Shown piece by piece: positions 351 through 36,389 of a stretch of DNA of 43,514 bases. The position numbers were made by a program, and so were the translations under genes. This DNA comes from a virus. The notes beneath the pieces are model-generated. The model was not told the origin of the DNA. It worked only from the letters and a program-made list of their open reading frames with translations, and searched no databases. The stretch is taken from IMG/VR virus record IMGVR_UViG_3300025679_000012, positions 1 to 43,514 of that record. The stretch is one strand, 5' to 3'. Position 1 is the first letter of the stretch. The number at the start of each line of letters is the position of its first letter.

Positions 351-1277
351 ATGGCACTCGTACAACAGGATGTCGTCGTCGATCCAGCGTTGAGTAACGT
401 CTCGATCAAGTACACCAACGACACCTTCATCGCTGACATTCTTTTCCCGATGGTAAAGACAGCGAAGCAGACAGGTAAATACTACATATACGATAAGAGC
501 AACCTCCGCGTCGATCAGACGACTCGTGCAGCTGGTAGCGGCGCGAACGAGATCGACTTCGGAGTGGCACCAACGGGGACGTTCTCCTGCGATGACCACG
601 CTCTGAAGGGCTTCGTGTCGGACGAAGTTCAGGATCAGGCAGATGCAGCCCTCAACCCGCTCATCGATGAGACTGAGACCATCACCGAGAAGCTCCTCCT
701 TGACCGTGAGACCAACGCGGCCACGATCATGCAAAACACAGCGACCCTCACTCAGAATACGACGCTCTCCGGAACGTCACAGTGGAGTGACTACCAAAAC
801 TCCGACCCAGTAGGTGACGTACGTACAGCTCGCACCACAGTGCACTCTGCCACGTTCAAGAAGCCAAACACACTCGTGCTTGGTAAGCAGACGATGGATA
901 TCCTCTGCGAGCACCCACAAATCCTCGAGCGCATCAAGTACTCACAGCTCGGTGTTGTGACACCTGAATTGCTCGCTCGCCTCTTCCAAGTCGAAAAGGT
1001 CATTGTCGGTGAAGCCGGCAGCCTCTCAAGCAAGGAAGGCCAGACAGACGCACTCGCGTACATCTGGGGCAAGCACGCATGGGTCGTCTACATCAGTCCA
1101 CGCGTAAGTCTCAAGATGCTCACCTTCGGTGTCACCTTCACTTACTCACAACGCATCGCTAAGCGTTGGAGAGACGAGGACCGCGAAGGAACCTACGTGC
1201 GTATCGGTAGCGATAACTACGTACAGGCCGTCATCGCCGCCGCAGCCGCCTACTTTATCAAAAACGCAGTAGCCTAA
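351..1277 (+). CDS. Major capsid protein (Mu gpT-like, HK97 fold expected)
   Basis: A 308-residue protein with the look of a major capsid protein: an N-terminal VVVDPALSNVSIKY segment, a LFPMVKTAKQTGKYY stretch, a long central alpha/beta region and a C-terminal segment with KRWRDEDREGTYVRIG. Location directly after the protease/scaffold and cement genes and upstream of small virion genes is the normal order for a head module. There is no Shine-Dalgarno; the leader is AT-rich (AAAACACTATT before ATG). It is followed within 16 nt by a strong hairpin, which may protect the mRNA. The HK97 fold is expected from the family and not directly visible. Role is fairly sure from context and length. Confidence 0.85.
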   Translation: MALVQQDVVVDPALSNVSIKYTNDTFIADILFPMVKTAKQTGKYYIYDKSNLRVDQTTRAAGSGANEIDFGVAPTGTFSCDDHALKGFVSDEVQDQADAALNPLIDETETITEKLLLDRETNAATIMQNTATLTQNTTLSGTSQWSDYQNSDPVGDVRTARTTVHSATFKKPNTLVLGKQTMDILCEHPQILERIKYSQLGVVTPELLARLFQVEKVIVGEAGSLSSKEGQTDALAYIWGKHAWVVYISPRVSLKMLTFGVTFTYSQRIAKRWRDEDREGTYVRIGSDNYVQAVIAAAAAYFIKNAVA

Positions 1278-4728: not shown

Positions 4729-5139
4729 ATGGCTTACTCCGCAAAAATAATCGGCAAGGTACTTGAGCGTGGGCAACTCAAGGTACAGGTGCAATATAAA
4801 AGCGACTCCGACACATTCGAGGAGTACATCGTCGTAAGCCGCGGCCAGCCGGAGGGATGGCTTACAGAGTGCATCAAGGCACGTCTCGCAGACTTAAATG
4901 AGTTGCCAGCAATCCATGAAGCGATCGTAACTCCGAGCGAGGAAATTACCCATGACATCCACGCACCGGAGCCAAAGACTCTAACGCCACGCGAGGAATA
5001 CGCAGCAGACCTGCAGCGCTTTGAAAAGTTTGTGCATGCGGTCGCGCGAGGCCTTACAACAGTGCAGCATGACGACTTTGTGGCACTCAAGAAAAAGCTC
5101 GCCGACAACTTCACTCCAGAGTATCTCGACCTCTTCTAA
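4729..5139 (+). CDS. Hypothetical protein preceding the sulfation cassette
   Basis: 136 residues, starting one base after the previous stop (TAAC-ATG). It begins with a beta-rich domain (MAYSAKIIGKVLERGQLKVQ, with VQYKSDSDTFEEYIV) and ends with a helical charged half (REEYAADLQRFEKFVHAVAR, VALKKKLADNFTPEYLDLF). The pattern of a small barrel plus a helical tail is common in virion or assembly accessory proteins. No family is recognised. Confidence 0.5.
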   Translation: MAYSAKIIGKVLERGQLKVQVQYKSDSDTFEEYIVVSRGQPEGWLTECIKARLADLNELPAIHEAIVTPSEEITHDIHAPEPKTLTPREEYAADLQRFEKFVHAVARGLTTVQHDDFVALKKKLADNFTPEYLDLF

Positions 5140-5143
5140 AACC

Positions 5144-5482
5144 ATGATTTACTCACTCTACCCCGGACGATTCCAGCCGTTTCACAAAGCGCATGCGGCG
5201 ATAGTGCAAGGGCTACTCGACGAGGGCAAGAGTGTCTGCGTTGCGCTGAGGGACACACCAAAGAGCGACACAGACCCGTACACCATTGATGAGCGCACGG
5301 CATTCATACGCGCATACTTCCCTAACGAGGAAAGGGTAAAAATTATCACGCTCCCCGACATCGAAGAAATCGTGTACGGCAGAAAGGTCGGGTACGGCAT
5401 CCGAGAGGTACACCTTAGTCCAGAGCTTGAGGCCATCTCAGCAACACAAATACGCAATGATAACTTGGCTGACCGGAAATAG
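5144..5482 (+). CDS. HxxH nucleotidyltransferase (NMNAT/cytidylyltransferase-like)
   Basis: 112 residues from the ATG at 5144, 4 nt after the previous stop. The N-terminus has the nucleotidyltransferase signature YPGRFQPFHKAHAAI, with H14 and H17 as the HxxH pair (HKAH), and near the C-terminus ISATQIR, the counterpart of the ISGTxxR motif. Members transfer NMP from an NTP to a phosphate-containing substrate; NMN adenylyltransferases, cytidylyltransferases and ATP sulfurylases share the fold. It overlaps the APS kinase gene by 26 nt, so it is probably co-translated. The neighbours make an ATP-sulfurylase-like step (forming APS) attractive, but the sequence alone looks closer to NadM-type enzymes, so the substrate is unresolved. 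Confidence 0.75.
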   Translation: MIYSLYPGRFQPFHKAHAAIVQGLLDEGKSVCVALRDTPKSDTDPYTIDERTAFIRAYFPNEERVKIITLPDIEEIVYGRKVGYGIREVHLSPELEAISATQIRNDNLADRK

Positions 5483-5777
5483 CGGGGCCGGCAAAACAAC
5501 CCTCGCCAACAAGATGCGCAGGCACGAAATACTGCTCGATGGCGACGCCATGCGCGCGGTGTGGCCGGGCTTGGGCTTTACGAAAGCGGACCGCTGGAAA
5601 AATAACCTGCGCATCGCTCGATTGGCAAAGGAACTTGACCGTCAGGGCTTCGACATCATTGTCTCCACAATTTGTCCGTACAGGAAACTGCGTGAAGAAG
5701 TGCGACACATCACTGGATGTCGCTTTATTTACATCGAAGGCGGCCGCACCGGCAAACAATACCCCTATGAAAAATGA
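5457..5777 (+). CDS. cysC: Short adenylylsulfate (APS) kinase
   Basis: 106 residues from the ATG at 5457, overlapping the nucleotidyltransferase gene. APS kinase phosphorylates APS at the 3' position to give PAPS, the sulfate donor. Visible motifs are Walker A GNSGAGKTT (residues 7-15), DGD at 28-30, the LGFTKADRWKNNLRIA segment matching the family's LGFSxxDRxxNxRR region, and ICPYRKLREEV matching ISPxRxxR. Typical CysC proteins are about 170-200 residues; here the segment between the VDT-like strand and the PYE motif appears deleted and the protein ends GKQYPYEK. So it is a compact, possibly altered kinase. It overlaps the sulfotransferase start by 11 nt, indicating a coupled cassette. Confidence 0.8.
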   Translation: MITWLTGNSGAGKTTLANKMRRHEILLDGDAMRAVWPGLGFTKADRWKNNLRIARLAKELDRQGFDIIVSTICPYRKLREEVRHITGCRFIYIEGGRTGKQYPYEK

Positions 5778-6354
5778 CACCGTCTACATCGTCAGTAGCT
5801 TCCACCGTAGCGGATCATCAATGATGATGCGCTGTCTTGAGGCTGGTGGCCTAGAGGCGTACTTCGATCCGTTCCTCGACACGGCATGGAATTTGATTTA
5901 CGGCAACAGTGACTATACGCCCAACCCCAATGGCTTCTATCACACCGATGACGAGCAAACAGACTGGCCGAGCTTTCATTCCGACCACAAGGGCAAGGTC
6001 GTAAAAGTGTTCCGGCGCGACCTCCACATCCTTCGCCCCGGAGCGTACAAGGTGGTGTTTATGACGCGCAACCCAGATGAGGTACGCGCCTCGATGCGGG
6101 CATTCTCTCCAAATACAACGTGGGGCCACATGGAGGTCGCCACTCATTTCTACGACCAAATAAAAGATGCGACGCTGGAGGCATTGCGCAAGCGTCCAGA
6201 CATGGAGATTCTGGAAGTAAACTACGGAGATGTAATCGCTGACCCAGTCAAGCAGTTTGAAAAAATAAGAGACTTCGGTATCCCGATTGATCCAGAAAAA
6301 GCAGCTGCCATGGTCGACAGCTCGCTCCATCGCTTTCGACTCGAGCGCGTATAA
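5767..6354 (+). CDS. PAPS-dependent sulfotransferase
   Basis: 195 residues from the ATG at 5767, which lies inside the end of the APS kinase gene. It has the two PAPS-binding motifs of the sulfotransferase superfamily: the 5'-phosphosulfate loop SSFHRSGSSMMM (residues 10-21) and the 3'-phosphate region FMTRNPDEVRAS with R101 and S109. Such enzymes move sulfate from PAPS to a hydroxyl or amine of a sugar, protein or small molecule. Directly following a PAPS-forming kinase, it probably uses PAPS made by that enzyme. The acceptor is unknown; tail or capsid glycans or proteins and host surface sugars are candidates given the virion operon context. Confidence 0.8.
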   Translation: MKNDTVYIVSSFHRSGSSMMMRCLEAGGLEAYFDPFLDTAWNLIYGNSDYTPNPNGFYHTDDEQTDWPSFHSDHKGKVVKVFRRDLHILRPGAYKVVFMTRNPDEVRASMRAFSPNTTWGHMEVATHFYDQIKDATLEALRKRPDMEILEVNYGDVIADPVKQFEKIRDFGIPIDPEKAAAMVDSSLHRFRLERV

Positions 6355-6357
6355 TTT

Positions 6358-7020
6358 ATGTCACGAAACGTAACACCATACACCACATGTGGCACGGCGG
6401 CCGATGACTCCACCGTAGGCACTCAAACGTGGGCAAGCCCAAACACAATCGCGGGAAATTACAATAGCATCAGTACCGCCACGACATGCACAGGAGTTGT
6501 CAACACCACTAAGACAACGCACTATCTAAAATGCACAAATTTTGGATTCAAACTACCCGCCGATGCCGTCATCCAAGGCATACAGGTGCGCATTGGCAAG
6601 TACAAAGGCACCACGGGCCCGACCGTAAAAGACGCAAACGTAAAGCTCGTGACTAACGGTTCAATAGCAGCGAGCACCGACAAGGCCGACACCGTGACTG
6701 CATACGCTTTGCAATCTGGAGGTGCTCCTCAGTATCAAGGGACGCAACCGTATGGCGGTCTTGGAGATCTTTGGGGGCTCACGCTTGTGGCATCGGACAT
6801 CAACAACTCGGGCTTCGGGGCAGCCATTGCTTGCACCCTAACCAGTACATCCGATGCGACAGCGGTCGTTGACATACAAACCTGCCAGATCATCGTGTAC
6901 TACGACAGTCAAAGACTCGGCAAAGGGCGCACCGAGGAGCGCTACAAACCAGCACCATTCAAGCCCGGAGACGGTACATTTATTAGCAACCTCAGAGGTC
7001 GAAAGATAATCAGGTCTTAA
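6358..7020 (+). CDS. Probable tail or virion surface protein
   Basis: 220 residues after the leader TATAATTT. Thr/Ser/Gly/Ala-rich, with four cysteines (TTCGT, TTCTGV, LKCTNF, AIACTL) that could pair in the extracellular virion, strand-like segments (AVIQGIQVRIGKYKG, DIQTCQIIVYYDS) and a basic C-terminal tail (NLRGRKIIRS). The layout resembles beta-sandwich fibre or decoration proteins. It comes right after the sulfotransferase and before the repeat protein, so it could be a sulfation target, which is speculation. Confidence 0.55.
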   Translation: MSRNVTPYTTCGTAADDSTVGTQTWASPNTIAGNYNSISTATTCTGVVNTTKTTHYLKCTNFGFKLPADAVIQGIQVRIGKYKGTTGPTVKDANVKLVTNGSIAASTDKADTVTAYALQSGGAPQYQGTQPYGGLGDLWGLTLVASDINNSGFGAAIACTLTSTSDATAVVDIQTCQIIVYYDSQRLGKGRTEERYKPAPFKPGDGTFISNLRGRKIIRS

Positions 7021-7067: not shown

Positions 7068-8966
7068 ATGGCATTCATCGCACTTAGATCACACGCAATA
7101 AAAAACCCGGGCAACACCCGGAATATTACGACGACCCAAACCGAGAACGGTGTCGCTCGCGTGCAGAAGACGACCTCTCAGACAGAGACTGGTGTAGGTC
7201 GCATCCAGATCACCACAGCGCGTACGGAGACAGGAGTCTCACGAATCCAAGTAACGACCTCAAAGACCACCACGGGCATAGCCAGAATCACGGCCACAAC
7301 AGCCCAGACTGCCACAGGTAAGGCGAGGATCACCGCAACCACTCCAAGGACCGAAACCGGCGTGGGGCGCGTCACAGCGACAACCAGCCGCACTGAGACC
7401 GGCGTTTCCCGTGTAACAGCCACCACATCGAGGACTGAGACTGGTGTGGCACGTATTACAGCCACGACGTCCAAGACGGAGACGGGTGTATCTCGAATCA
7501 CTGTCACTACCCTGAAGACCGAAACCGGCCTCTCGAGAGTGACCGCGACGACCTCACGAACCGAGACTGGACTCGCCCGGATAACCGCTACCACGACGCG
7601 CACAGAAACTGGTAAAGCCGCGATCCTCCGCACCACAAATCAGACCGAAAGTGGTATAGCTCGCGTGCAGGTGAGCACCGCGCGCACTGAGACCGGCGTA
7701 GCACGCATTCAAATCACCAGCACCAAGACGGAGACTGGTATCGCTCGAGTGACTGCAGTGACAGCAAAAACAGAAACAGGCCTCGCTCGCATTCAGATCC
7801 AGACCACGAAGACCGAGAGTGGTGTGGCGCGCATTACCGCATCAACCCTGAAGACAGAAACGGGTGTCGGCCGTGTGACTGCAACCACCCTGAAGACCGA
7901 GACCGGCGTATCGAGAATCACTGCAAAAACGACCAAGACAGAGTCGGGTGTTTCCCGTGTAACGGTATCGACCTCGAGGACCGAGAGTGGTGTGGCAAAC
8001 ATCGCCTCGTCAACCACCACAACAACGAAGACCGAGACAGGTGTCGCAAATATCAAGGTGACTACCCAGCGCACTGAGACCGGCGTAGCACGCGTGCAAG
8101 TAACGACACAGAAAACGGAGACGGGTATAGCGAGAGTGCAACTCACAACTTCAAAGACCGAGACTGGTGTCGGACGTATCACCGTCTCCACTTCGAAGAC
8201 TGAAACGGGCGTAGCGCGAATCACTAAAGTAACAGCAAAGACCGAGACCGGAGTAGCGCGAATCACCGTGACTACGACAAAGAGCGAGACCGGCCTCGCC
8301 CGCATAACCACGATCGACTCAAAGACCGAGACCGGCAAAGCTGCAATCCTCAAGACATCCTCTCAGACCGAAAGTGGTGTCGGCCGCATCACTACGACGA
8401 CCGCACGAACCGAGACCGGCAAAGCCTCCATCCTGCGCACGACGACTCAAACGAAGACGGGTGTGGCACGCTTGCAGGTTCAAACCAGTAAGACAGAGAC
8501 CGGAGTAGCTCGCATCACCAAAGCAGTGGCACGCACAGAGACAGGCACCTCACGAATTACCGCCCAGACCGCCCAGACCGCCCAGACCGCCACAGGTAAG
8601 GCGAGAGTGACCATTACCACCTCCCGGGCCATTCAGGGCACCTCACGCCTCCTGAAGACCTCATCGGCCACTGAGATGGGCAAAGCACGCCTCCAATACA
8701 CCACCAGTCGCACCGAGACGGGCAAAGCGACCGTTTCCGCCATTACGACCCAGAATATCACCGGGACCGCGTCGATCGTGGCACAGGTAAAGCAAGGCAA
8801 AGGCAGGCACGTCCTCACGACGCACCAGCGAGCACAGATACTTCCAACGAAGACCATACAAACCGACACCATCACCACAGGCAGTAGAGCGCAGACGACA
8901 GTCGAAACAGGAACCAAAATATTATCCACCCTCACCACGCGCACACCCGAGCGCACGGTGCTATAA
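7068..8966 (+). CDS. 14-residue repeat protein, probable fibre
   Basis: 632 residues of which about 545 consist of some 39 tandem repeats with consensus TTxxTETGVARITA (14 residues, 42 bp). Invariant positions are T-x-T-G and an R/K-I/V pair; two units carry 3-residue insertions. Alternation of Val/Ile with Thr suggests a stacked beta structure such as a solenoid or fibrous stalk; YadA-type heads also use 14-residue turns, but the consensus differs. There is no cysteine and no hydrophobic core segment. Codons differ from repeat to repeat although the protein motif is kept, so the repeats are old and selected at protein level. A perfect 9-bp triple repeat at 8561-8587 marks recent slippage. 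The last ~75 residues are not repetitive. Function as a tail or head fibre is inferred. Confidence 0.65.
   Translation: MAFIALRSHAIKNPGNTRNITTTQTENGVARVQKTTSQTETGVGRIQITTARTETGVSRIQVTTSKTTTGIARITATTAQTATGKARITATTPRTETGVGRVTATTSRTETGVSRVTATTSRTETGVARITATTSKTETGVSRITVTTLKTETGLSRVTATTSRTETGLARITATTTRTETGKAAILRTTNQTESGIARVQVSTARTETGVARIQITSTKTETGIARVTAVTAKTETGLARIQIQTTKTESGVARITASTLKTETGVGRVTATTLKTETGVSRITAKTTKTESGVSRVTVSTSRTESGVANIASSTTTTTKTETGVANIKVTTQRTETGVARVQVTTQKTETGIARVQLTTSKTETGVGRITVSTSKTETGVARITKVTAKTETGVARITVTTTKSETGLARITTIDSKTETGKAAILKTSSQTESGVGRITTTTARTETGKASILRTTTQTKTGVARLQVQTSKTETGVARITKAVARTETGTSRITAQTAQTAQTATGKARVTITTSRAIQGTSRLLKTSSATEMGKARLQYTTSRTETGKATVSAITTQNITGTASIVAQVKQGKGRHVLTTHQRAQILPTKTIQTDTITTGSRAQTTVETGTKILSTLTTRTPERTVL
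7140..8780 (+). repeat. Array of about 39 degenerate 42-bp coding repeats
   Basis: Period of 42 bp carrying the consensus ACNGAGACNGGNGTNGC inside each unit. The repeats diverge at third positions, unlike a recent tandem expansion. At 8561-8587 the 9-mer CGCCCAGAC occurs three times in a row, a likely recent slippage product adding three residues per copy (QTA). Confidence 0.85.
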
Positions 8967-8974: not shown

Positions 8975-9895
8975 ATGAAAGTACTCCTAGCACCCACCGA
9001 GGACTTTATCAAACGAGAGCGCAGCGCACTGAGCGCGGCCGCAACAGCAGGCTCGAGCGTAGTCTTGAGCATCGTCAACAGTGCCGGCTTTGCAGTGAAC
9101 GACTACGTCGTCATCGGACTCGAGGGCAGTGAAGTGGCCGAGCTTTGCAAAATCACTGCAGTGGCAGCAACGACAATCACCGTCGCAACCTTGGCACTCG
9201 CGCATCAGATCGACGACCCAGTAGTGAAGTACCGATACAACGAGCGCAAATTCTACGGATCACTGACCGCAACCGGAAGCTACACCGAGCTGACAGGATA
9301 CGGTTCGCCAGTGACGATCGCAGTCAACGACCCGCAAGGCACTATTCTCGAGTACACCGGAGGCGAGGGATACCTATACTTCAAGAGCACCTACTACAAC
9401 AGCACCACGACAGACGAGAGCAACCTCGTCGATGCAGATACCGTACTCGCCGACGAGAGCGTGCGCTACTGCAGCCTCTACGCAATCAGAAAGCAGGGTG
9501 GCCTCACCAACAACCCCTACGTCACCGACGGACTGATTGAGGTCTACCGCAAGCGCGCAGAGAGTGAAGTGGACAGTTACCTCAACGCACGATACATACT
9601 CCCTCTCATAAACAGCACCGGCTCGCCGGAGATCCCATTCCTCGTAGAGAACTGCACCATGCTACTCGCGGCCGGGTACATGGACTATCAGGAGCTCGGC
9701 AAAGACGGAGAAGGTATCAAGTGGCTCGGTGAAGCGCGCGGTGTACTCAAGCGACTGCAGTCACCCGGAGGCCAGCAACTCCTCGGATCCGACAAGCTGG
9801 AGATGCAATCACGCATCCTCTCCAACGGCGTACAAAGCTACCCAGACGACACCGACTGCGAACCTCCAGTATTTACAATCGGCCAACGCTTCTAA
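8975..9895 (+). CDS. Head-tail adaptor, gp36-like (DUF1320) domain
   Basis: 306 residues. The N-terminal ~110 residues form a beta-rich domain (VLSIVNSAGFAVNDYVVIGL). The C-terminal part (VRYCSLYAIRKQGG, YRKRAESEVDSYLNARYI, VENCTMLLAAGYMDYQEL, WLGEARGVLKRLQSPG) matches the Mu gp36-type adaptor family: an all-helical head-completion protein that docks below the portal. The usual family length is about 140 residues, so the extra N-terminal domain is an addition here. It is followed by gpG-like and tail-terminator genes, the expected connector order. Confidence 0.75.
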   Translation: MKVLLAPTEDFIKRERSALSAAATAGSSVVLSIVNSAGFAVNDYVVIGLEGSEVAELCKITAVAATTITVATLALAHQIDDPVVKYRYNERKFYGSLTATGSYTELTGYGSPVTIAVNDPQGTILEYTGGEGYLYFKSTYYNSTTTDESNLVDADTVLADESVRYCSLYAIRKQGGLTNNPYVTDGLIEVYRKRAESEVDSYLNARYILPLINSTGSPEIPFLVENCTMLLAAGYMDYQELGKDGEGIKWLGEARGVLKRLQSPGGQQLLGSDKLEMQSRILSNGVQSYPDDTDCEPPVFTIGQRF

Positions 9896-30755: not shown

Positions 30756-32015
30756 ATGCAAACCGCACTCACAGTCCATGAAATACCGATCGATGAGCTG
30801 AAGCCAGCCGACTACAACCCACGCAAGTGGAGCGACGCGGCACGCAAAGGGCTCACCGATTCGATGGACGAGTTCGGCATGCTTCAACCAATCGTCGCCA
30901 ACTCCTCGGCCGAGCGCCGGGGAGTGGTGATTGGTGGCAACTTCAAACTCGACATCGCAAAAAAGAAGGGACTCAAGACCGTCCCCGTTGTTTGGATTTC
31001 GCTCACACTCGAAAAGGAAAAGGCGCTCAACCTCCGACTCAACAAGAATCAGGGAGAGTTTGACGAGGAATTACTCGCAGAGTTTGACCCGGTCCTACTC
31101 GCACAGGTGGGATTCGAGAGCAAGGAAATCGATAAGATATTCGGCGAGGACGGAGAGGACGACTTCGATGCAGACAAAGAGGTGGCGGCGATCGTCACAC
31201 CAACCAGTAAGCGCGGTGAGGTCTACCAGCTCGGCCGACACCGACTCATGTGCGGAGACGCGACCGCGCAGGCGGATGTAGATACGCTGAGGGGGGGGGC
31301 GCTCGTCGACATGGTCTTCACCGATCCGCCATACAACGTCGCCTACAAAGGGAATGGCAAGAACACCAGCAACACAATAAAAAACGACGACATGAGCGAG
31401 GACTCATTCAGAGCCCTGCTCACCGGCGCATTCGCGCAATACAAGAACGCACTCAAAAAAGAGGGCGCGCTTTATTGTTGCTACGCCAGCCACACACATC
31501 GAGAGTTTGAGGACGCACTCAACACCAACGGATTCGAGGTGCGCAACCAAATTATCTGGGTCAAGAAGGTGGCGAGCTGGGGCTTCGGCGACTATCGCTG
31601 GAAGCATGAGCCGATACTTTACTGCCACCAGAAAGGCTCACCACTCCCCTTCTACGGCGATCGCAAGCAGTACACGGAGTGGACGGAGGAACCGAGCGAC
31701 GAGGAACTCCTGAAGACACTCCGGGCACAAGTGACAAAAGACGAGGAAGGGGAGTCGACAGTGTGGAGACTCGGACGCGAAATGAAGTACGACCATCCGA
31801 CACAAAAGCCTCTCAAGCTGGTGTCGATAGCAATCAGGAACTCGAGCAAACGCGACGACATCGTACTCGACCTCTTCGGAGGATCAGGCAGCACCCTTAT
31901 CGCTGCGGACCAACTCAATCGAAGCTGCTACACCATGGAGCTCGACGAGAGGTATGTTGACGTGATTATTAAACGCTGGGAAAAGCTCACCGGCGGCAAA
32001 GCAATAAAAATATGA
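30756..32015 (+). CDS. ParB-like domain fused to DNA methyltransferase
   Basis: 419 residues. Residues 1-120 (PADYNPRKWSDAARKGL, LQPIVANSSAERRGVVIGG, KKKGLKTVPVVWISL) are a ParB/sulfiredoxin-type domain. The methyltransferase then has DPPY (190-193, motif IV) before the SAM-binding DLFGGSGST (372-380, motif I), the permuted beta-class order, for N6-adenine or N4-cytosine methylation. HPTQKPLKLVSIAIRNSSK is the region before it. The phage could protect its DNA from host restriction. A G9 run at 31291-31299 in the coding sequence is a possible slippage site. Confidence 0.82.
   Translation: MQTALTVHEIPIDELKPADYNPRKWSDAARKGLTDSMDEFGMLQPIVANSSAERRGVVIGGNFKLDIAKKKGLKTVPVVWISLTLEKEKALNLRLNKNQGEFDEELLAEFDPVLLAQVGFESKEIDKIFGEDGEDDFDADKEVAAIVTPTSKRGEVYQLGRHRLMCGDATAQADVDTLRGGALVDMVFTDPPYNVAYKGNGKNTSNTIKNDDMSEDSFRALLTGAFAQYKNALKKEGALYCCYASHTHREFEDALNTNGFEVRNQIIWVKKVASWGFGDYRWKHEPILYCHQKGSPLPFYGDRKQYTEWTEEPSDEELLKTLRAQVTKDEEGESTVWRLGREMKYDHPTQKPLKLVSIAIRNSSKRDDIVLDLFGGSGSTLIAADQLNRSCYTMELDERYVDVIIKRWEKLTGGKAIKI
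31291..31299 (+). repeat. G9 homopolymer inside the methyltransferase gene
   Basis: Nine G in a row between motif regions of the methyltransferase (codons AGG-GGG-GGG-GCG). Such tracts can gain or lose a base during replication, switching expression of the gene. Confidence 0.6.
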
Positions 32016-34676: not shown

Positions 34677-35065
34677 GGTCGATGAAGATAATGGCACTCA
34701 AAGACGAGGGCCATAAACTAATCGACCGGCTCGTATCGATGGGAACGGAGCGCACGACGGTCTACCACAAGCTCAGGAAACAACTGAAGCGACACGATGG
34801 CACTGAGCACTTCAGTAACATGAGGACCATCGAGCAATGTCAGGAGGCAGTCGAGCGCCTGCACATGATGGTGGGATTCAAAATGAAGGCACTCGAGGAG
34901 GCAAAGAACCCCACACCAAAGACGGAACGCCGCCGGAAACGCAAAGGCCAGATGCTCGCACACGCTGAGATGCAGAGAGCCTTCGCAGAGCTGCGTGCAC
35001 GTCGAGGGCAACCGACCCGATGGCAGAGAATTATCAACCGAATCAAAAGCATCGTATGGGAGTAA
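34673..35065 (+). CDS. Basic helical hypothetical protein
   Basis: 130 residues (MRSMKIMALKDEGHKLIDRL). Helical, with a basic stretch TPKTERRRKRKGQMLAH and a C-terminal RWQRIINRIKSIVWE. Likely a nucleic-acid-binding accessory. It overlaps the previous gene by 4 nt and the next one by 10 nt. Confidence 0.5.
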   Translation: MRSMKIMALKDEGHKLIDRLVSMGTERTTVYHKLRKQLKRHDGTEHFSNMRTIEQCQEAVERLHMMVGFKMKALEEAKNPTPKTERRRKRKGQMLAHAEMQRAFAELRARRGQPTRWQRIINRIKSIVWE

Positions 35066-35223
35066 AGATTACCCCCGGGCAGGCACCGAAAGTACGCTGT
35101 CCCGTTTGCAAGAGCCTCTACAAGCCCGAGGAACTCAAAGGGAAGAAGGCATGCGACAGATGTGCGTTTGCAGGCGATCCACAGGAGGACGGAGAGGAAT
35201 GGCCACTCAAGAAGAAATTCTAA
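35056..35223 (+). CDS. Small zinc-ribbon protein
   Basis: 55 residues from the ATG at 35056; a longer frame (35020) is possible but overlaps the previous gene by 46 nt. CPVCKSLYKPEELKGKKACD followed by RCAF gives a C-x2-C...C-x2-C zinc ribbon, then an acidic-basic tail. It precedes the cytosine methyltransferase and may help target it. Confidence 0.55.
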   Translation: MGVKITPGQAPKVRCPVCKSLYKPEELKGKKACDRCAFAGDPQEDGEEWPLKKKF

Positions 35224-35225
35224 CT

Positions 35226-36389
35226 ATGAAATACGTCTCAACATTTACAGGCATCGGCGGATTCGAACTCGGCATAGGGGCCGAGCACGAGTGCGTCGGA
35301 TACTCAGAGGTAGACAGATACGCATGCAACATTTACCAGCACCACTTCCCTACTCACCAAAACTATGGAGACATCACCAAAATCGACGCAGCCTCTCTTC
35401 CCGACTTCGACCTCCTCGTTGGCGAATTTCCTTGTCAGGCTTTCAGCATCGCTGGAAAACGACGAGGGTTTCAAGACACTCGGGGTACTCTCTTCTTCGA
35501 CCTTGCGCGAATACTGCAAGCAAAACAGCCTCGACTATTCGTCTTTGAAAATGTCAAGGGATTACTCAGTCATAACGATGGCCAGACTTTCCGCACCATC
35601 ATCGCCACGCTTGCTGAGCTGGGGTATGACGTCCAATGGCAAGTGCTTAACAGTAAAAATCACGGAGTCCCTCAAAACAGAGAGAGAGTGTTCATTGTCG
35701 GACATCTTAGAGGATCACGTCGACCCGAAGTATTTCCTCTCGGAGAAGGTGATAGCCGGACTGACGAAGCACGCAATCAAGAGAGGGAAGTCGTGGCCCA
35801 CACGCTCCGCGCCAAGCAAGGGGGCCCGGACCTAGAAAACTCGTACCTCATACCGGAGGCAACGCAGATGGGATACGCAGAGGCACACGTGGGAGACAGC
35901 ATAAACCTCTCAGTGCCCAACTCGACCACGCCGCGTGGTCGAGTTGGGAAAGGGATAGCTCAAACATTGGACACCGGAATGCAACAGTACACGATCGTGG
36001 CAGGCAACCAACGAGGAGAGGTACGAGAGATGCCGATAAGCGGGAGCCTCGCATCGAAGAAAAGCTCAAGCCAGTTCTCGTACCTGCTCCAGCGACCACG
36101 AGGCAAGAACAAGGGAGGCAAGCATGACATCGCACCCACGATGACCGGAAGCGAATACCATCATAACAACCATGTCGCAGGCGCTCGCATCCGGCGCCTC
36201 ACACCGACAGAGTGCGAGAGACTGCAGGGCTTCCCAGACGGATGGACCGGCGTAGAGGGCACAAGCGACACCCAGAGATACAAGACACTCGGCAACGCAG
36301 TGACGGTGAACGTGGTCAGAGACGTCATGCGCAAGCTACTCGCAGGCGACCAAGACAGTGAGTCACTTTCACGGCCCGCTCAAAAGTAG
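35226..36389 (+). CDS. DNA (cytosine-5) methyltransferase
   Basis: 387 residues from ATG 35226 (leader CTAACT). Motifs of the C5 family are in order: I FTGIGGFELGI, IV GEFPCQAFS (C70 is the catalytic Cys), VI FVFENVKGLL (E108), VIII QNRERVF, X GNAVTVNVV. The target-recognition stretch (about residues 190-330) is unusually hydrophilic and contains a perfect 15-bp inverted repeat. It should methylate phage DNA at C5 to escape restriction. No cognate endonuclease is visible, so it is an orphan. Confidence 0.88.
   Translation: MKYVSTFTGIGGFELGIGAEHECVGYSEVDRYACNIYQHHFPTHQNYGDITKIDAASLPDFDLLVGEFPCQAFSIAGKRRGFQDTRGTLFFDLARILQAKQPRLFVFENVKGLLSHNDGQTFRTIIATLAELGYDVQWQVLNSKNHGVPQNRERVFIVGHLRGSRRPEVFPLGEGDSRTDEARNQEREVVAHTLRAKQGGPDLENSYLIPEATQMGYAEAHVGDSINLSVPNSTTPRGRVGKGIAQTLDTGMQQYTIVAGNQRGEVREMPISGSLASKKSSSQFSYLLQRPRGKNKGGKHDIAPTMTGSEYHHNNHVAGARIRRLTPTECERLQGFPDGWTGVEGTSDTQRYKTLGNAVTVNVVRDVMRKLLAGDQDSESLSRPAQK
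35916..35948. repeat. Perfect 15-bp inverted repeat inside the cytosine methyltransferase gene
   Basis: CCCAACTCGACCACG, a 3-nt CCG spacer, then the exact reverse complement. It lies in the variable recognition region of the enzyme. A perfect hairpin of this size is not expected by chance. Confidence 0.8.

Follow-up and report, generated by a model that had tools for sequence, protein, structure and literature searches.

Three overlapping plus-strand genes of a viral genome, A, B and C (positions 5144-6354), probably encode a compact sulfation pathway, with A and B as a split minimal PAPS synthase whose sulfurylase, A, derives from NMN adenylyltransferases (NMNATs), and with C as the transferase. 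The sulfurylase function of A is predicted from gene fusion and genomic context. In the proposed pathway, A would join sulfate to AMP from ATP to give APS; B, by its homology to APS kinases, would phosphorylate APS at the 3' position to give PAPS; and C, by its fold and PAPS site, would move the sulfuryl group of PAPS onto an acceptor. A and B would together be a split version of a two-domain enzyme that is a single polypeptide in Patescibacteria and many phages.

Organization and conservation of the cassette

The head and tail genes of the window, which is the whole 43.5-kb IMG/VR virus record, are siphovirus-like, and the cassette is flanked by the genes for the major head protein and a head-tail adaptor (Table 1). 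Each of the three genes overlaps the next, by 26 nt between A and B and by 11 nt between B and C. Compared with relatives in other phages, they gave pN of 0.16-0.44 and pS of 0.77-0.88 (synonymous sites saturated); A, B and C are coding and under purifying selection. A search for the cassette in other phages, as the first-pass annotation had proposed, found all three genes in phage contig L014, where they again overlap and follow the order A, B, C, and where A and B also share 26 nt. The three overlapping genes that it had described are thus confirmed by their coordinates, Pfam matches, pN/pS and recurrence in L014. Elsewhere in the window, a ParB-like/DNA methyltransferase fusion and a cytosine-methyltransferase-like protein were recognized by eye.

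Table 1. Positions of the cassette genes, their neighbors and other features in the window and in related loci
Feature	Record	Position	Strand	Length	Description or match
Major head protein	window	351-1277	+		phrog_1005, E 2.9e-89
Upstream protein	window	4729-5139	+	136 aa	No assigned function; 35% identity to L002 protein, E 3e-23
Gene A	window	5144-5482	+	112 aa	NMNAT-like HxxH nucleotidyltransferase; proposed minimal ATP sulfurylase
Gene B	window	5457-5777	+	106 aa	Short APS-kinase-like P-loop kinase
Gene C	window	5767-6354	+	195 aa	PAPS-type sulfotransferase
Downstream protein	window	6358-7020	+	220 aa	Probable virion protein; E 1e-21 to L002, 6e-27 to L013
Repeat protein	window	7068-8966		632 aa	phrog_25538; many short TETGVARIT-type repeats
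Head-tail adaptor	window	8975-9895	+		phrog_195, E 1.6e-5
ParB-like/DNA methyltransferase fusion	window	30756-32015			By eye
Cytosine-methyltransferase-like protein	window	34995-36389			By eye
Glycosyltransferase-like genes	L012	378-1235, 2663-4315			By eye
Glycosyltransferase-like genes	L015	2128-2901, 6852-7982			By eye
QueC-like PP-loop ATPase	L046	6348-6914			Near kinase-nucleotidyltransferase fusion
Staskawiczbacteria fusion protein	L119	1664-2470			A + full-length APS kinase

Gene C and the candidate acceptor

Judged by its family, conserved PAPS site and predicted fold, gene C is a good PAPS-type sulfotransferase. It passed the PF13469 (Sulfotransfer_3) cut-off of 27 with 38.8 bits (E 1.6e-9) and also matched PF00685 (E 2.4e-5). 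The best 31 PDB fold matches that Foldseek returned for its predicted model (pLDDT 85) were all sulfotransferases (31/31), and VIA aligned 168 residues of the model with TPST1 (Z 12.5, rmsd 3.5). The 5' phosphosulfate loop reads FHRSGSS and the 3' phosphate site RNPDEVRAS. Loss of PAPS-binding residues in relatives, which the first-pass annotation had raised as a sign against its reading, was not seen: R14, G16 and S18 in the loop and R101 and S109 in the 3' site do not vary among the six phage sequences.

Five other viral contigs carry a relative of gene C, and one more match came from a near-identical copy of the window phage. Phage GenBank records searched with gene C gave no match, so its closest relatives are metagenomic only. 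In L002, L012, L013 and L015 the C relative adjoins, or sits between, counterparts of the two genes that flank C in the window. Relatives of the 136-aa protein immediately precede the sulfotransferase gene or a kinase-sulfotransferase pair in other phages (between kinase and sulfotransferase in L002, with positional relatives in L012, L013 and L015), and those of the 220-aa protein immediately follow the sulfotransferase. The contigs L013 and L015 contain the C relative with neither A nor B, and L002 and L012 contain B but no A. Within the cassette, C is constant and A and B are optional; the latter two may provide PAPS where the host produces little.

Since late virion genes surround C, its acceptor would most likely be a late product, for example a virion protein, a virion glycan or a host surface glycan. 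A sulfated virion part or surface glycan is at this stage speculative. Glycosyltransferase-like genes lie in the virion region of the sulfotransferase in L012 and L015, and their presence suggests a possible glycan acceptor and glycan decoration of the virion. The repeat protein near the cassette is probably a fiber or decoration protein.

Descent of gene A

By sequence comparison, gene A descends from NMN adenylyltransferases and not from ATP sulfurylases. It matched PF01467 (E 1.4e-8) and the profile of the archaeal NMNAT 1f9a (E 5.8e-13), and its family matched Patescibacteria NMNATs in hhalign at 99.8%. The predicted model (pLDDT 88) aligned with NMNAT structures (archaeal NadM, 1f9a/1ej2) at Z 10.2-10.4 in VIA, and PPAT and NMNAT headed both the VIA and the Foldseek lists. 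ATP sulfurylase did not appear in either list, and we give no weight to this. Gene A carries the motifs GRFQPFHKAH, YGRKVGY and ISATQIR, and across 17 aligned A-family sequences G8, R9, Q11, H14, H17, Y78, G79, R80, V82, G83, I98, S99, T101 and R104 are invariant.

The A family lacks a segment of ~17 residues that NMNATs have between PDI and VY(S/T)G (YGR in A), presumably the nicotinamide-binding segment, and carries an invariant YGRxVG in its place. Gene A scored far under the NMNAT equivalog cut-offs (TIGR01527, 32.9 bits versus 181; PRK01153, 37.8 versus 127), and the NMNATs formed a group separate from the A family in a nucleotidyltransferase tree. Membership of gene A in the ATP-sulfurylase family was rejected, as PF01747 gave no match to the window's gene A protein (the best member of set A4 reached E 0.003) and hhalign aligned it with ATP sulfurylase over only 24 shared columns (18%). 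A likeness of YGRDVG to the sulfurylase motif GRDHAG was set aside because the two motifs are unaligned in hhalign.

Gene B, a shortened APS-kinase-like protein

Gene B (protein P0002) matched PF01583 (APS_kinase) at E 5.8e-21 and the APS kinase 7yq0 in the PDB at E 3e-17, and has a P-loop (GNSGAGKT) and the motifs LDGD, DRxxNNLR and CPYR. The protein stops at PYEK, and the APS-kinase lid (DPKGLYKKA...FTGID) and C-terminal strand are absent from it. We call B APS-kinase-like because these elements are missing and its Pfam match covers only profile positions 4-103 of 152. The B protein of L002 (76% identity) has the same end, those of L014 and L016 end near the same place, and those of L012 and L019 end even earlier. 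A recent frameshift as the origin of the short B was rejected on account of the shared end in L002 and the nearly shared one in L014 and L016. Patescibacteria relatives keep a short version of the lid region (PYEVPKNPDLTIDP), suggesting that phage B is a shortened variant of a family with an already reduced lid.

Of the labels in the first-pass annotation (nucleotidyltransferase for sulfate activation, APS kinase, sulfotransferase), that of C stands, while the B protein falls short of canonical APS-kinase length and A derives from NMNATs and lies outside the ATP-sulfurylase family. With A and B so corrected, its overall reading of sulfate activation and transfer is supported by the fold and PAPS site of C and by the links of the A family to APS kinases and sulfotransferases.

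The A-B pair in viruses

Scanned stretches held 446 viral A relatives, the best 80 of which were kept as loci. A was fused or close to an APS-kinase-like domain of B's type in nearly all of these best 80 of 446, and phrog_10255 is a kinase-nucleotidyltransferase fusion. L016 carries A, B and then a different sulfotransferase in a row, and a GLPRSG-type sulfotransferase lay within 1.4 kb of A in 10 of the 80 best viral loci; most viral A-B fusions had no sulfotransferase within the stretch examined. PF13469 was present in 7 of 41 A-anchored contigs (2.03 Mb) versus 1 of 50 random viral contigs (1.25 Mb). No canonical ATP sulfurylase was found above cut-off in 46 viral records.

DUF2061 stands beside many of the phage fusions (a cluster of 25 loci, of which one member was tested in Pfam), and on the Mesorhizobium huakuii nod plasmid it lies between a sulfotransferase and cysD/cysN. 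DUF2061 neighborhoods on Bradyrhizobium and Halobellus plasmids held no sulfur genes, so only the phage loci and the Mesorhizobium plasmid connect DUF2061 with sulfate. A second family beside the fusions (L031, L033, L046, L077 and L078) has PRASS/PRTGS-type loops (one member tested, Pfam-negative) and is perhaps a further sulfotransferase family. The kinase-nucleotidyltransferase fusion of marine phages has a QueC-like PP-loop ATPase nearby in L046.

The A-B pair in cellular genomes

In Patescibacteria and DPANN genomes, A and an APS-kinase-like domain are joined in a single polypeptide at 13 of 14 loci, usually with A first. Conservation extends through the whole of the Patescibacteria fusions, whose lid is very short. 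The L119 protein joins A to an APS kinase of full length (PF01583, E 3e-36, positions 4-149 of 152), and the next gene encodes a sulfotransferase. Sulfotransferases also adjoin the fusion in L118 and L120 and lie near it in L110, L111 and L123. Several of the Patescibacteria fusion genes (L110-L118, L121-L123) are in polysaccharide or sulfotransferase neighborhoods, and L123 has an inositol-phosphatase-like gene. Among 286 Patescibacteria genomes, PF13469 was present in 4 of the 8 with A and B versus 16 of the 278 others (Fisher p 0.001, a value that overstates independence because several of the eight are close kin). Canonical ATP sulfurylase passed its cut-off in none of these eight A+B genomes versus six of the others, and in 1 of 23 cellular A carriers. 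CysD gave a strong match, under its equivalog cut-off, in 1 of 14 carriers. Many of the assemblies behind the sulfurylase counts are incomplete. A relatives also occur in SAR11 (Pelagibacteraceae), Rhizobium and other cellular genomes (L124-L139).

Together, the APS-kinase fusion, the sulfotransferase neighbors, the absence of the usual sulfurylase and the DUF2061 context tie A and B to sulfate. The first-pass annotation had allowed for a nucleotidyltransferase acting on NMN and unconnected with sulfate; A does have NMNAT ancestry, but the second part of that proposal fails because the A family is fused to APS kinase and adjoins sulfotransferases. In the nucleotidyltransferase tree, gene A grouped with L016 among Patescibacteria sequences, apart from the marine kinase-nucleotidyltransferase fusions (moderate support). 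A Patescibacteria host for the window phage is possible on this grouping.

Alternative functions of the cassette

The ancestry of A could instead point to NAD salvage, in which B would phosphorylate nicotinamide riboside and A would adenylate NMN, as in NadR, with C an unrelated neighbor using host PAPS. The closest solved relatives of A are archaeal NMNATs, its family is close to the Patescibacteria NMNATs in hhalign, a kinase paired with an adenylyltransferase follows the logic of NadR, and a NADAR-domain gene adjoins the fusion in Stenotrophomonas phage Bhz60. However, B resembles APS kinase and not nicotinamide riboside kinase, A has the new invariant YGRxVG where the NMNAT segment is missing, the fusion partner of A in L119 is a full-length APS kinase and a sulfotransferase adjoins that fusion, and neighborhoods of the A-B pair are enriched in sulfotransferases; we consider NAD salvage quite unlikely. 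It is also unlikely that only C works, drawing PAPS from the host, with A and the short kinase being remnants or re-purposed. The missing lid of B, its still earlier end in L012 and L019, and the occurrence of C without A or B in L013 and L015 would all fit such a decay, but purifying selection on A and B is clear, L014 retains their order and overlap, and the Patescibacteria fusions are conserved throughout despite their very short lid.

APS-kinase-like enzymes can act on other nucleotides, and the CDP-phosphoramidate kinase of Campylobacter is APS-kinase-like. With A outside the sulfurylase family, A and B might accordingly make a 3'-phosphonucleotide carrying another group (e.g. phosphoramidate or phosphonate) for transfer by C. 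Against this stand the full-length APS kinase in L119, the association of A-B with several different sulfotransferase families, the DUF2061 association as in a cysD/cysN-sulfotransferase operon, and a TauE permease near the fusion in L111, and we regard a donor of this kind as highly improbable. The compact sulfation pathway is the reading that we prefer.

A candidate class of ATP sulfurylase and its relation to known systems

To our knowledge, the ATP sulfurylases generally recognized are of just two types, Sat and CysDN. The A family appears, as a prediction, to be a so far unrecognized NMNAT-derived type with a wide distribution among phages and Patescibacteria. The fullest form of this proposal, on which our judgment is evenly divided, is that A represents a third, minimal class of ATP sulfurylase that evolved from NMNAT, has spread in Patescibacteria, DPANN and hundreds of phages as a ~250-aa PAPS synthase, and here feeds a head-operon sulfotransferase acting on the virion or a surface glycan. 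If true, a compact sulfurylase of this descent would explain how PAPS could be supplied in reduced Patescibacteria and in many phages without Sat or CysDN, genes now annotated as NAD genes or as 'kinase' would become sulfation genes, and phage-driven sulfation of virions or surface glycans would become testable.

A literature search, with subscription journals mostly outside its scope, found no phage or Patescibacteria PAPS synthase of the A+B type. In published virome work, sulfotransferases rank with the most frequent auxiliary genes of viruses predicted to infect Patescibacteria (PMC12285232), and APS kinase appears under 'assimilatory sulfate reduction, not validated' (PMC12713726). Our results point to sulfate transfer rather than assimilatory reduction for such genes.

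In known PAPS synthases (PAPSS and bacterial Sat-APS kinase), as in A and B, an HxxH nucleotidyltransferase is paired with an APS-kinase domain, in our case probably also for PAPS. Unlike PAPSS, A is ~110 aa, NMNAT-derived and outside PF01747, B has no lid, and the two are separate overlapping genes. Archaeal NadM (PRK01153; 1f9a/1ej2) belongs to the same superfamily as A and has a similar fold and the motifs GRFQPFHxGH and IS[AG]TxIR, whereas A has the invariant YGRxVG instead of the ~17-aa segment after PDI and is linked with APS kinase and sulfotransferases. Members of phrog_10255 (annotated 'kinase', e.g. in Stenotrophomonas phage DLP_6) are homologous to A and B as one protein, but they are fused in kinase-nucleotidyltransferase order, and no sulfotransferase was recognized beside the fusion in two isolates. 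C shares its fold and PAPS-binding residues with Sulfotransfer_3 and tyrosylprotein sulfotransferase, StaL and Teg12, but is short (~190 aa) and only 11-18% identical to them. Rhizobial NodH-NodPQ resembles the cassette in that sulfate-activating genes adjoin a sulfotransferase (together with DUF2061) for one dedicated product; there, however, activation is by CysD/CysN and not by an NMNAT-like enzyme, and the acceptor is the Nod factor.
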